Part shown: positions 7,576 through 26,320 of the stretch, one piece after another
Position numbering within the stretch: the first letter of the stretch is position 1
How the letters are laid out: the number at the start of each line of letters is the position of its first letter
Origin: a virus
IMG/VR virus record: IMGVR_UViG_3300042914_002933
Location: 1-28,544 of that record
Length of the DNA: 28,544 nt
Direction: 5' to 3' (one strand)
The notes under the pieces: model-generated
Seen by the model: the letters and a program-made list of their open reading frames with translations, nothing else
Database searches by the model: none
Told to the model about the DNA's origin: nothing
Made by a program: the position numbers and the translations under genes

Positions 7576-9690
7576 TCAACCCATGACCTTGTATCTACGT
7601 ATAAATCTCTTGTCTTCAAATGACGCCACTGGTTTTTCTTTCGCCTTTTGAGCGGCGAGGAGCGCCAATCCAGAGCTTATGGTCAAGTCAAACTTAGTAC
7701 GCTTGTCAATCTTAAACCCTATCCAGTCCTCCAGGGTTCTATCGAAATACATCTTACCCATCTCCCCAGTCTCGTAGTTTATCCCGACATGGTTGTGGAC
7801 GTAAGACTCTATGGCCTGGGCATGGGCATGTATGATGTCCTGCGAGTTTGATGGGATTCCCTTGGTCTTCACGCTTGTATTAGAACCAGAAATCTTCAGG
7901 TGCTCTGGCCTGTCCATGATGTACCCGTCATAACCCCTCTGCTCAAAGTACCTGACTATACCGTACTTGTTGTTTTCTATAAGCAGCGGATAGCCATAGA
8001 AGAAGGCGCACATAAGCACATCCTCGTAGAATATCTTAGCCATGTCCGGTCGAGAGGCGTACTCCACCACAAACATGTTGGACGGCCTGTTCATGGAGAA
8101 CTTGTTGTACATATGGAGGGCCCCCTTGGAGCCCCTGCCGTCTACAGTAGCGTCGATGTCATAGGAGTCAACCCCACCACACCCATAGTCAGAGAATGGG
8201 GGAACGCGCTTCCCATGGGCCTCTCTTATCACGTTTCGCTCTTCATTAGGGGGCATCCAGCAAACCCTAAATCTTCCGTTGACGTTAGGAGAGAACACAA
8301 CCTTCTTGTCTTTCTCCTCCCACACAAAGTTGCCCTGTACAACAGGGTTGGGGTACAGTTCCTGGTTGTGCTCTATCTGCTCGTAAATTTTCCCTACGTT
8401 AAATATGCTCCCCGACACACTGTCTCTAAACGCCTCGTCTTCGTTGAATGGAAACTGCCTGACTATTTCGTTCATCTCCGAGGAGTCATGCTTCATGCTG
8501 TCTCTCTCGTTTCTCAAGAAGTCTTTGGCGCCTATGGCGGTAGTTCCACCGTCGAGCGTCTCAACTGGTTCTTCTGGGGTCTCTGCTATAGGATTACCAT
8601 AGACATCAAAGAATCCCTCCAGGGCGTCATAGGCAGGAACAAAAATCTTGTACAGTCCGCTCTTGGTTCTTCCGTTGGCATTTCGTTCAAACGGGTTGCT
8701 GTCCTCCCACAACTTCTTGTATTCCTCACCACCGTTCTGCATTGGGTTCACGGTACTGCCAACCAAAGCCTTACCAATCACGTTCTTACCAACGATGAGA
8801 CACGTACGCTCTATCCTCCACGCCTCTCTTATGTCTGACGGGTCCTCCCACTTACCAGCCTCATCCAGGTATAGCATGTGCAGTTTCTCACCGTCGTATG
8901 CGTTGTTGGTGGTGTTCTTCCAGTTGATTATGGTGTTAAGAGCGTCACCAGCATATGTGCTCTTGTTGTTCTTGGTTATCCTCTTGGATGGCTCCCTAAA
9001 GGCCAGTTCCATTCTGGGGTTGGTGGTACCGTCCTGGATAGGCTTGAAGAAGAAAGGGTAGTTTGTAAAAATCTGAACTACCTTCTTCATGAAGATATTC
9101 TCCTGAGCGTCCTTACCCGTCTTGGACTGTATGCCTATCGTCTTGTCCTTGACCTGAGTTCCCTCGTCAACAAGGATAGCAGTGCAAATGTTGGTGTAAC
9201 CAGAACGGCGACACTTAGTATAAAGCTGACCAATACAACGCTCGTCAGCCTCACAAGCAGCAAAATGAAGAAATATCTCACGTTGAAACTGTAGGAAGTA
9301 AGGGTAACCTATGTCAATCTTAGACCACTGGAGAAACATGTAGTGTCTGCCTGTGATATACGTAGGCTCGCCATTGTTATAGAACCACACCCCGTTCCTC
9401 CTCCTTTTGTACTCCTCTTCTATGTACGGGGAAAATGTAGCCCTGAACTCTGGAGACTTTTCCATCCACTCGTCCATGGACCTAATCTTCTCAAGTTCCT
9501 TAGGGACTGGCAACCTTGACCATCGTTGTTCCAGTTTTGGGAACTCGTGAAACAGTATCTCTTTCTTAGATGGCTGTTTGGGTAAAACGACAAGAAGCCC
9601 GTGAAGTTCTATGACTTCGCCGTGGCTTCCGTTTGGGTCTATCTTTATTCCTTTCTCCTTATAGCCCTCTAAGTCAACCAAACAACTCAT
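7576..9690 (-). CDS. terL: Terminase large subunit
   Basis: A 704-residue packaging motor. The ATPase domain shows a Walker A-like loop KCRRSGYTN near residues 159-167 and a Walker B with catalytic acid, LYLDEAGKW, near 273-281, followed by a GSTVNP motif around 311-316 that fits the coupling segment. The nuclease domain shows GVDSYD near 506-511 and IENN near 571-574, consistent with the acidic metal-binding residues of an RNase H-like fold. The protein uses ATP to drive DNA into the prohead through the portal and cuts the concatemer. Its ATG overlaps the thyX stop (ATGA). It ends with a TGA stop. No small terminase subunit is recognised nearby. Confidence 0.92.
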   Translation of the reverse strand: MSCLVDLEGYKEKGIKIDPNGSHGEVIELHGLLVVLPKQPSKKEILFHEFPKLEQRWSRLPVPKELEKIRSMDEWMEKSPEFRATFSPYIEEEYKRRRNGVWFYNNGEPTYITGRHYMFLQWSKIDIGYPYFLQFQREIFLHFAACEADERCIGQLYTKCRRSGYTNICTAILVDEGTQVKDKTIGIQSKTGKDAQENIFMKKVVQIFTNYPFFFKPIQDGTTNPRMELAFREPSKRITKNNKSTYAGDALNTIINWKNTTNNAYDGEKLHMLYLDEAGKWEDPSDIREAWRIERTCLIVGKNVIGKALVGSTVNPMQNGGEEYKKLWEDSNPFERNANGRTKSGLYKIFVPAYDALEGFFDVYGNPIAETPEEPVETLDGGTTAIGAKDFLRNERDSMKHDSSEMNEIVRQFPFNEDEAFRDSVSGSIFNVGKIYEQIEHNQELYPNPVVQGNFVWEEKDKKVVFSPNVNGRFRVCWMPPNEERNVIREAHGKRVPPFSDYGCGGVDSYDIDATVDGRGSKGALHMYNKFSMNRPSNMFVVEYASRPDMAKIFYEDVLMCAFFYGYPLLIENNKYGIVRYFEQRGYDGYIMDRPEHLKISGSNTSVKTKGIPSNSQDIIHAHAQAIESYVHNHVGINYETGEMGKMYFDRTLEDWIGFKIDKRTKFDLTISSGLALLAAQKAKEKPVASFEDKRFIRRYKVMG

Positions 9691-10322
9691 GTAAATTTAA
9701 GTGCAGCTGCCGTTACTGGCAGGTTATCTGCAAAGATATGTTTAATGACTTTTGCCAAATCCTGTATCTCTTTCTGAGCATGTGGGTCGTCACGAATCTG
9801 CAAGAAATGTATCCAAGAGCGTACGCTGCCAGTCATGTGCAGCGTTGTCTTCGTGGCAAGAGGCAGCACAAATCTTGCCGTCTCACGAGACACGCCAGCC
9901 TCAATTAGACCGTTGTATAGCTGCTCACATGCGGCAAACACCATAGCTACCTTGCTATCAAGGACAACAGAGTTCATTGGCTCAACAGACGACTGCCTGT
10001 TTTTTACAGCCTGCCAACGCAACTCCACTGGCTCAAAGATGCTCCCGTCTTTTGACAGGGCATTGACGTCCTGGTATCTCTGGCTAAACTCCTGGAATGT
10101 AAAGCTTCTATGTCTGAGAAGCTGTATGGCTATGGCCTTGCTGGTCTCTATCTCAAACGTAAGGTAGGAGTGCTCGAACGGTGACCAGTGCCCATGAGTG
10201 ATGAGGTACTTTATGAGCGAGCCGTAATCCTCCTTCTTATTCTCACGAGAGCTTGAAACACGTGCAACTTCAACAATATGCTGTTCAGCATTGGGGGTGA
10301 TGGACAATAGTTTTACTTTCAT
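9687..10322 (-). CDS. thyX: Flavin-dependent thymidylate synthase ThyX
   Basis: A 211-residue protein with the ThyX signature RHRX7S: RHR at residues 70-72 and Ser80 in RHRSFTFQEFS, followed by QRYQ. HGHWSPFEH at 43-51 is also typical. ThyX methylates dUMP to dTMP using FAD, NADPH and methylenetetrahydrofolate, and phages carry it to boost dTTP during replication. The length matches the family. Unusually it lies among late genes, in ATGA overlap with terL. The first 21 bases around its start codon are repeated upstream at 10853-10873, suggesting that the gene in between was inserted at the thyX start. Confidence 0.95.
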   Translation of the reverse strand: MKVKLLSITPNAEQHIVEVARVSSSRENKKEDYGSLIKYLITHGHWSPFEHSYLTFEIETSKAIAIQLLRHRSFTFQEFSQRYQDVNALSKDGSIFEPVELRWQAVKNRQSSVEPMNSVVLDSKVAMVFAACEQLYNGLIEAGVSRETARFVLPLATKTTLHMTGSVRSWIHFLQIRDDPHAQKEIQDLAKVIKHIFADNLPVTAAALKFT

Positions 10323-10324
10323 TT
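10304..10324. repeat. Direct repeat copy 1, thyX start region
   Basis: A 21-base segment covering the thyX start codon and first codons (plus strand contains AGTTTTACTTTCATTT). It matches 10853-10873 at 20 of 21 positions. The two copies bracket the unknown gene 10324-10854. Confidence 0.85.
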
Positions 10325-10854
10325 TATTCCCAGTAGATTTCTTCTCCTCTTAAGTAAAGTTTCTTCTCCTCTGCTTTTTCTTCAGATGTAAAGTGTCTGT
10401 CCGTAAACAGACAGTAGTTGTTTGGCATCAAGCAAAACTGACCGCTTTCAAGATTCACAAGATTAAGTGGCTTGTGCTCTTGCGGATACATGCTATACCC
10501 GTCTTTCCAATCAACCATGATGCCTGTGTGTCTTCCTTTGCAAGTCCTGGTTTTTACTTCAAGGCCGTGAAGATAATGAACGTGCCATACATCCATGTCA
10601 TCGCCCATGCACTTCCATGGCATCAGTTCTTCGTGAGTCAGTGAAAAATCTTCTGTAGTGGATACTCCGTGAAGCGGAAGCCCACTCCAATGAGCGCCAG
10701 TTTCAAGGACTACGTGACACAGCAAAACCTGATACTCACGACCATATACAGCGTGCCATATACCCTTTGTAACGCCTTCTGGCATATTCGGACCAAGCAT
10801 CTTGTTATCTACATTTATGTAGAAGTGATGCGGGAGATTTGCGTGTTTGCTCAC
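10324..10854 (-). CDS. Unknown 176-aa protein, possible inserted moron gene
   Basis: The frame begins with GTG at 10854 (SKHANLPHHFYINVDN) and ends with TAA one base before the thyX ATG. The protein is rich in His and Trp (HVVLETGAHWSGLPLHGV, MDVWHVHYLHGLEV); I recognise no family. The cluster of His, Cys, Asp and Glu could bind metal, but that is only a suggestion. The GTG overlaps the TGA of a seven-codon ORF duplicating the thyX 5' end, so translation is probably coupled to that remnant. The flanking 21-base direct repeats support insertion into the thyX leader. Confidence 0.7.
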   Translation of the reverse strand: MSKHANLPHHFYINVDNKMLGPNMPEGVTKGIWHAVYGREYQVLLCHVVLETGAHWSGLPLHGVSTTEDFSLTHEELMPWKCMGDDMDVWHVHYLHGLEVKTRTCKGRHTGIMVDWKDGYSMYPQEHKPLNLVNLESGQFCLMPNNYCLFTDRHFTSEEKAEEKKLYLRGEEIYWE

Positions 10855-10871
10855 AAGAGTTTTACTTTCAT
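10851..10871 (-). pseudogene. Six-codon remnant of the thyX 5' end (MKVKLL-stop)
   Basis: ATG at 10871 encodes M-K-V-K-L-L and then TGA. ThyX itself begins MKVKLLSI with nearly identical codons. The TGA overlaps the GTG start of the next gene (GTGA), giving it a ready-made translation start region. Confidence 0.6.
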
Positions 10872-10873
10872 TT
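10853..10873. repeat. Direct repeat copy 2, thyX start duplicate
   Basis: A 20/21 match to 10304-10324, displaced by 549 bases. One copy is the functional thyX start and this one is the remnant. Confidence 0.85.
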
Positions 10874-10982
10874 GATTTATGACCGTGATGGTTTTTTACT
10901 TCATTGAATCGTTATTGCAGTTATAATGATGCATTTTTGCTTCATTTGCATCAACAATCAGGCATTATGCTCAGGAGTAATT

Positions 10983-11017
10983 CCCGAGTTTGGCGCCGTT
11001 TTACTCCCGAGTTTGGC
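10983..11017. repeat. 12-base direct repeat at the 3' end of the UCA tRNA
   Basis: CCCGAGTTTGGC occurs at 10983-10994 and 11006-11017 on the plus strand. The second copy overlaps the encoded CCA end of the tRNA; the first lies 23 bases further on and also carries CCA-like bases. It may be a trace of recombination at a tRNA 3' end or a processing signal. The rest of 10874-10982 shows no gene. Confidence 0.6.
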
Positions 11018-11088
11018 AGCCAGGGTAGGAGTCGAACCTACATTCAGTGGCATGAAGCCAGCCATTCTACCAGTTGAACTACCTGACT
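11014..11088 (-). tRNA. tRNA with anticodon UCA, Trp-like (UGA-decoding candidate)
   Basis: Folded by hand: acceptor AGTCAGG/CCTGGCT, D stem GTTC/GAAT, anticodon stem GCTGG/CCACT (one C-C mismatch), loop CTTCATG, T stem GTAGG/CCTAC and an encoded CCA. Counting from the D arm puts TCA at 34-36. The A1-U72 pair, discriminator G73 and D-arm sequence match bacterial tRNA-Trp. Base 37 is U, which is unusual. A CAU anticodon would need a badly mismatched stem. It is last in the minus-strand tRNA cluster, next but one to a normal Trp(CCA) gene. Confidence 0.72.
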
Positions 11089-25241: not shown

Positions 25242-25769
25242 ATGAAAACAATTCAAATCGGTTCACAAGTGTGGACTACAAAGAACCTGCGAGTATTCAA
25301 GTTTCGCAATGGAGACCCCATCCCGATTATTCAGGACAACGAGGAGTGGAGCAAACTCGAATCACCTGCCATGTGCATCAACCCTGACAACGGAGAATGT
25401 TACTACAACTGGTACGCAGTCAACGACTCGCGATGTCTTGCACCTATAGGATTCCATGTGCCTTCAAATGACGAGTGGCAACAGCTTGTTGACTACTGCG
25501 GTGGTAATGAGAAAGCGGGCAACTTGTTGAAATCGACGAAAAAGTGGGATGGCGCAGGAGCCTCCAAAGGATTCAATGCTATCCCTTCAGGCTTCCGAGC
25601 CCACTACAACGGGAACTTCTACGACCAAGGCAACAACGGGCATTGGTGGTCTTACTCCCCGAGTGGAGCAGACGCTTGGTATCGCTGGCTGTGCTTTGAA
25701 GACCCGTATGTCTTCCGTGACTACTCCAACCAACGAAACGGCTTCTCTGTACGCTTAATCAAAGATTAA
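25242..25769 (+). CDS. FISUMP-domain protein, copy 1
   Basis: A 175-residue protein matching the Fibrobacter succinogenes major paralogous (FISUMP) domain along its whole length: IGSQVWTTKNLRV (residues 5-17), GECYYNWYAV (51-60), APIGFHVPSNDEW (67-79), FNAIPSGFRA (111-120), HWWSYSPSG (134-142) and the end NGFSVRLIKD (166-175). The fold is C-type-lectin-like, used for ligand binding in surface proteins. Oddly there is no signal peptide, so it may be an intracellular or virion binding protein. Copy 2 follows after 11 bases. Confidence 0.88.
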   Translation: MKTIQIGSQVWTTKNLRVFKFRNGDPIPIIQDNEEWSKLESPAMCINPDNGECYYNWYAVNDSRCLAPIGFHVPSNDEWQQLVDYCGGNEKAGNLLKSTKKWDGAGASKGFNAIPSGFRAHYNGNFYDQGNNGHWWSYSPSGADAWYRWLCFEDPYVFRDYSNQRNGFSVRLIKD

Positions 25770-25780
25770 AACACCCAACT

Positions 25781-26320
25781 ATGAAAACTATTCAAATTGG
25801 TTCACAAGTGTGGACAAGAAAAAACCTCCGAGTGTTCAAGTTCCGTAACGGAGACCCTATCCCAATCATTCAGGATTCCGACGAGTGGGCATTATCTCAA
25901 GAAGCCGCTATGTGTATCAACCCTTACAATGGAGAATGCTATTACAACTGGCATGCTGTCGCTGACAAACGAGGTCTTGCCCCCAAGGGATTCCACGTTC
26001 CGTCAGATATGGAGTGGTATACGTTAATCAAAGTATACGATGGTTTTGATGTCGCGGCTAAATTGTTGAAGTCCCCTAAAAAGTGGGATGGCGCGGGAGT
26101 CCCCAAAGGATTTAATGTCAAAGGATTCGATGCCATTCCAAGTGGATACCGCACACACAATGGCGACATCATCACTCGCGAATACAGCGGGTTTTGGTGG
26201 ACTTCCACTCCATGTGGTTCAGAAGCATTTTGCTACTACATGTTCTCTGGGGTCTCGATTGCACACCGAGATAGCGGCACCTTTCGAAACGGCTTCTCTG
26301 TCCGCTTAATCAAAGATTAA
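25781..26320 (+). CDS. FISUMP-domain protein, copy 2
   Basis: A 179-residue paralogue of the gene before it: same start (MKTIQIGSQVWT), same motifs (GECYYNWHAV, APKGFHVPSDMEW, FDAIPSGYR, FWWTSTPCGSEA) and the same end NGFSVRLIKD. The segment between the WW motif and the end differs strongly (YYMFSGVSIAHRDSGTFR here against YRWLCFEDPYVFRDYSNQ), where ligand contacts are expected in this fold. It has no two-box element of its own, only AACACCCAACT before the ATG, so it is probably co-transcribed. No signal peptide. Confidence 0.88.
   Translation: MKTIQIGSQVWTRKNLRVFKFRNGDPIPIIQDSDEWALSQEAAMCINPYNGECYYNWHAVADKRGLAPKGFHVPSDMEWYTLIKVYDGFDVAAKLLKSPKKWDGAGVPKGFNVKGFDAIPSGYRTHNGDIITREYSGFWWTSTPCGSEAFCYYMFSGVSIAHRDSGTFRNGFSVRLIKD

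Follow-up and report, generated by a model that had tools for sequence, protein, structure and literature searches.

Gain of single genes by illegitimate recombination is known from mosaic phage genomes, in which a "moron" appears as one foreign gene between otherwise collinear genomes, with its junctions at gene boundaries, and is spread by homologous exchange. A classical moron carries its own promoter and terminator. Here we analysed a complete virus record of 28,544 bases (IMGVR_UViG_3300042914_002933, hereafter the window) in which a gene for a 176-aa protein precedes thyX. The locus resembles a moron in the features listed first; unlike a classical moron, the newcomer follows the former leader of thyX, with only 1-2 bases left between its stop and the thyX ATG. 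PMC2884548 discusses homology-facilitated illegitimate recombination, citing studies of Acinetobacter and Pneumococcus. That process is similar in combining one homologous with one nearly homology-free junction and in having short repeats that flank the variable segment, but concerns transformation of bacterial chromosomes, whereas here the exchange would be between phages and is read from sequence only. The free-standing homing endonuclease genes of T4-like phages (PMC2988022) are likewise present or absent beside a nucleotide-metabolism gene in close relatives; in contrast to them, no nuclease signature is found here and a short flanking duplication stays at the filled site. No description of the present case was found in the literature. 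Each of the processes is of a known kind, and what is new is that the steps are so completely recorded and that an uncharacterised family is linked to thymidylate genes.

The duplicated thyX start and its leader

On the minus strand of the window, which carries thyX, the 176-aa gene and both repeat copies, the order is leader, mini-ORF, TGA GC... of the 176-aa gene, TACTGGGAATAAA and the thyX ATG (Table 1). The preliminary description had claimed a 21-base repeat on both sides of the gene, an upstream copy encoding MKVKLL and then a TGA overlapping a GTG start, and an intact thyX, and all three are borne out. The thyX gene starts at 10322 with ATG AAA GTA AAA CTA TTG TCC. The two starts are identical at 20 of 21 bases, the first 18 bases of thyX being duplicated, and the repeat reaches 25 nt at 92% identity. 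When up to three mismatches are allowed, the window contains the 21-mer AAATGAAAGTAAAACTATTGT at these two places and nowhere else. The TGA (10853-10851) overlaps the GTG (10854-10852) as GTGA. This GTG is the first start codon past an in-frame stop, no other in-frame start lies upstream of it, and in relatives the N-terminus MSKHANLP of the family begins at its position. The thyX product matches Pfam Thy1 at 1.2e-48 and PHROG 85 at 7.9e-69.

Table 1. Features of the thyX locus in the window and corresponding sites in related contigs
Feature	Position	Strand	Basis or members
Conserved thyX leader	10874..11013	-	19 loci aligned, both occupied and empty; thyX follows immediately in empty relatives
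Upstream repeat copy, 21 bases	10853..10873	-	Remnant of thyX start; 1 mismatch
Mini-ORF ATG AAA GTA AAA CTC TTG TGA (MKVKLL, stop)	10851..10871	-	Sequence
Inserted 176-aa gene, GTG start, PHROG 3704	10324..10854	-	ORF and profile match
Downstream repeat copy, true thyX start	10304..10324	-	Exact
thyX, flavin-dependent thymidylate synthase, 211 aa, intact	9687..10322	-	Pfam Thy1, PHROG 85
Filled loci besides the window			L107, L109, L112, L113, L114, L118, L121
Empty loci, first leader search			L106, L111, L115, L116, L117, L119, L120, L122, L123, L124, L126
Empty loci, second leader pattern			L211-L214

The leader contains two CCAAACTCGGGA boxes (10982-10993 and 11005-11016) a TGATGCA/TGCATCA inverted repeat and the sequence ...GGTCATAAATCAA. 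A strong RNA fold is predicted for it from sequence (z -3.2), and a sigma-70 promoter scan gave results no better than shuffles. The leader may have a regulatory function and be exchanged as one unit. A thyX leader of about 110-140 bases (10874-11016, minus strand) is common to phages with different upstream genes.

Translation of the 176-aa gene would start from this former thyX leader, with ribosomes either initiating directly at the GTG or restarting after the mini-ORF. Restart is plausible from the sequence, and direct initiation is as possible. The overlap of an upstream stop with the next start that characterises termination-reinitiation is present as GTGA, and such coupling would be ordinary in this genome, given that neighbouring structural genes overlap by 1-4 bases. 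Read-through of the mini-ORF TGA by the upstream tRNA with anticodon TCA was rejected, as only about 12 further residues would be added before the next stop, and it is also disfavoured by the anticodon TTA of this tRNA in several scar carriers. The tRNA in question adjoins the leader (11014-11088, minus strand); its anticodon TCA is opal-reading, while L002/L003 have the ochre-reading TTA, ARAGORN classifies it as SeC or Stop, and its position 37 is an unusual T. A cluster of six tRNAs lies upstream of the site. Both TGA and TAA are common stops in this genome, ending 17 and 16, respectively, of the 35 ORFs regarded as genes.

The terminase is nearest to that of an uncultured Caudoviricetes record and then to those of Flavobacterium and Cellulophaga phages, so that a Bacteroidota host is likely. 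Elsewhere in the window, many plus-strand genes between 21750 and 26620 are preceded by a similar AAACACACACA leader, apparently a recurring start signal, and two adjacent genes (25242-25769 and 25781-26320, plus strand) have near-identical starts (MKTIQIGSQVWT...), a tandem duplication.

Empty, filled and scarless sites in related phages

When IMG/VR was searched with the leader-start sequence, seven further filled and 11 empty loci were obtained; with those of a second leader pattern, 15 related contigs are empty, a single copy of the thyX start directly following the same leader. Filled or empty status was read directly at the junctions; both groups include several near-identical loci, and the independent phages are fewer than the loci counted. 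The nearest thyX relative lacking the gene (L026) also has the same leader directly followed by thyX. The search with the second leader pattern returned thyX or the 176-aa gene only, and no other gene at the site. The single-copy empty site predicted in the preliminary description thus exists in 15 relatives, and together with the scar at the filled sites it agrees with the proposed gain of a gene at the thyX start. The newcomer's place after the former thyX leader is likewise supported, the leader of the filled sites being the one that precedes thyX in the empty relatives. By this comparison, the newcomer appears to have taken over the thyX leader.

All filled sites, in seven contigs and the window, read ...AAAACTC TYG TGAGC, and the recurrence of the junction in the seven other contigs led us to reject an assembly error of the window record. 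The CTC codon is private to the scar, the thyX starts examined having CTA, CTG or CTT. The mini-ORF is open in 8/8 scar carriers, where it encodes MKVKLL, MKAKLL or MKAKLS, and its ATG, frame and GTGA overlap are kept. The same junction with the private CTC in every filled site makes a single origin of the scar likely. A-rich starts of the form MKxKL are common, and the resemblance of the two copies could be due to chance or convergence; the scar copy indeed differs among phages (GTA or GCA, TTG or TCG). However, 100 dinucleotide shuffles of the window gave no match to the 21-mer at up to three mismatches, and the leader and repeat of the filled sites equal the leader and thyX start of the empty sites base for base. 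Such a coincidence is therefore extremely improbable.

Two more distant relatives, L006 and L009/L134, carry the gene and thyX side by side and have no upstream repeat copy. In L006 and L134, the gene begins with TTG right after a tRNA-Arg and a 14-base leader, and the GGGAATAAAATG join between gene and thyX is the same as at the scarred loci. In three further loci (L027, L029 and L030), a tRNA-Arg and a short leader of similar kind lead straight into thyX. The preliminary description had considered that close relatives with the gene but no repeat would speak against its reading. Taken literally, L006 and L009/L134 have the gene without the repeat, but their upstream context, a tRNA-Arg leader, is different, and they look like the donor type. 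The presence of the same join in scarless L006/L134 indicates that it is older than the scar and that only the left (upstream) junction is new, and the target duplication proposed earlier, in the sense of a transposon-like event, is not supported. At the new left junction, direct reading finds only 1-2 nt shared with the known donor-type loci, which points to an illegitimate step there. No exact donor was found.

Spread of the scarred cassette and a probable mechanism of gain

The gene is 92-98% identical between scar-carrying phages whose thyX genes are 72-78% identical, and across thyX clades its identity is 92-95% and its dS 0.2-0.4, against a dS of 1.1 to saturation for thyX in the same phages. 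Scar carriers occupy three separate places in the thyX tree, two of them beside empty relatives (filled L133 is sister to empty L111, and filled L121 groups with empty L119, L211 and L214), and a single clade of scar carriers is rejected on this tree (p-AU 1e-57). In pairs matched by thyX identity, L133 and L111 reach 97% and L121 and L119 94%; moreover, L133 and L111 are fully identical over a 60-base stretch of the leader (-90 to -30). Between L006 and empty L212, thyX identity is 75% in its first 60 nt and rises to 97-100% in the following 300, a jump that documents a crossover near the thyX start. These comparisons show that the scarred cassette, likely of one origin, has spread between thyX alleles via the conserved leader and thyX start.

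It is also conceivable that an ancestor had both scar and gene and that the empty phages arose by slippage between the 18-base copies, restoring thyX precisely. The 549-base spacing of the two near-perfect copies suits such a deletion, deletion is commonly linked to repeat-flanked variable segments in bacteria (PMC2884548), and reversion of L133- or L121-like phages could have given rise to L111 or L119. Loss leaves unexplained, however, why the mini-ORF resembles the thyX start. Moreover, GTA and CTT are found in 15/15 empty sites and a GCA/CTC hybrid in 0/15, and the dS of the gene, far below that of thyX in the same phages, implies that the gene was not inherited along with thyX. We consider this explanation unlikely.

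The probable course, in our opinion, is that the gene was gained when an empty phage underwent an unequal, illegitimate crossover with a donor that carried gene and thyX together, and that the scarred cassette spread later; this is suggested by the left junction alone being new and the gene-thyX join being older. The recipient would have had the leader followed by thyX, and the donor the gene already joined to thyX. One unequal, nearly homology-free crossover would have placed the recipient leader and the first 18-19 bases of thyX onto codon 1-2 of the donor gene. Downstream, the existing join of the gene to a complete thyX would either have persisted or have been restored by homologous recombination within the first ~60 bases of thyX. 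What looks like a duplication would then be two overlapping thyX starts, each contributed by a different parent, and homologous exchange in the conserved leader and thyX start would subsequently have carried the scarred cassette from one thyX allele to another. We infer the order of the crossovers and the identity of the donor. Three points weigh against the crossover: the upstream junction shares so few bases with the donor-type loci, among which there is no exact donor; the right-hand exchange into an L121- or L133-type thyX would have to fall in about 17-20 identical bases, which is short; and tree counts cannot tell gain from loss, and deletion between the copies could have re-emptied some sites.

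The gene might instead be self-mobilising, the 176-aa protein or a nuclease acting in trans cutting the thyX start with a long stagger so that the gene inserts like a free-standing homing endonuclease gene or a transposon. Its occurrence at the thyX start in two upstream contexts and its polymorphic presence among close phages would fit, as would the single-copy empty site at 15 loci, which is expected of a transposon-type insertion. On the other hand, the insert is a single ORF with neither a transposase gene nor terminal inverted repeats around it, the inverted repeats of the region not bracketing it, and none of 65 family members has a Pfam or PHROG nuclease or transposase match. Furthermore, L006 and L134 have the identical gene-thyX join and no duplication, and a fresh double-ended insertion is not needed. 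Self-mobilisation is accordingly quite unlikely.

The 176-aa protein and its link to thymidylate genes

The window protein matches PHROG 3704 over residues 27-160 (E 1.5e-12), and this profile is matched by 65/65 aligned family members. Between gene variants dN is far below dS. Pfam gave no match to the window protein up to E 0.1 and no family for the 65 members. The PHROG 3704 label "ferredoxin" is not supported, Fer2_2 being matched by 1/65 members at E 0.24 only and the alignment having no invariant cysteine, nor is PurM, the label of distant relatives in cyanophage records, since no member has a PurM/AIRS Pfam domain and the length is 176 aa. No Pfam signature of homing endonucleases of the HNH, GIY-YIG and LAGLIDADG types was found in the 65 members. 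A gene resembling those for GIY-YIG/NUMOD homing endonucleases (L146:5304-6005) shares a few bases with the start of a PHROG 3704 member. The confident AlphaFold model (pLDDT 88.9) had no Foldseek match in the PDB at E<=0.001; the best VIA hit (Z 6.6) was to common SH3/tudor-like arrangements, and BFVD returned unnamed or uncharacterised relatives only. No relative was found by sequence search of the PDB, and a search of a genome collection gave only two matches, both short MAG contigs.

In another lineage, with thyX only ~30% identical, the order is thyX, family gene and tmk (L145, L156, L160 and L172, to which L166, L168 and L173 are related), while L187 and L189 have dUTPase, family gene, a SET-like gene and dCMP deaminase. 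Within two places of a family member, 14/125 genes match Thy1, thymidylate kinase, dCMP deaminase or dUTPase, and four to six places away dTMP-pathway families are matched by at least 3 among 145 genes (among the matches listed); several loci share descent, and these counts are suggestive and carry no formal test. In two phage lineages, the gene that immediately follows the PHROG 3704 gene encodes a small SET-domain protein (L187:6545-6925 and L168:6545-6946). The position of the family gene beside thyX and tmk, or beside dUTPase and dCMP deaminase, in two other lineages suggests a role of the 176-aa protein in thymidylate supply as the best current guess. More tentatively, and with some doubt, the family could be a new accessory protein of the dUMP-to-dTMP pathway, traded as a single-gene cassette that the shared thyX-start sequence targets to the front of thyX, the six-codon remnant serving as a leader that sets the expression of newcomer and thyX together.

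Phage mosaicism is usually inferred from old and blurred joints. In the present case, public contigs contain every stage, from the empty site and scarless loci of donor type to the scarred product and its later spread over different thyX alleles, making the gain of a single gene readable base by base. In addition, the locus offers two natural leaders with which restart from a six-codon ORF can be measured, and an uncharacterised phage family gets a testable pathway, that of thymidylate supply.
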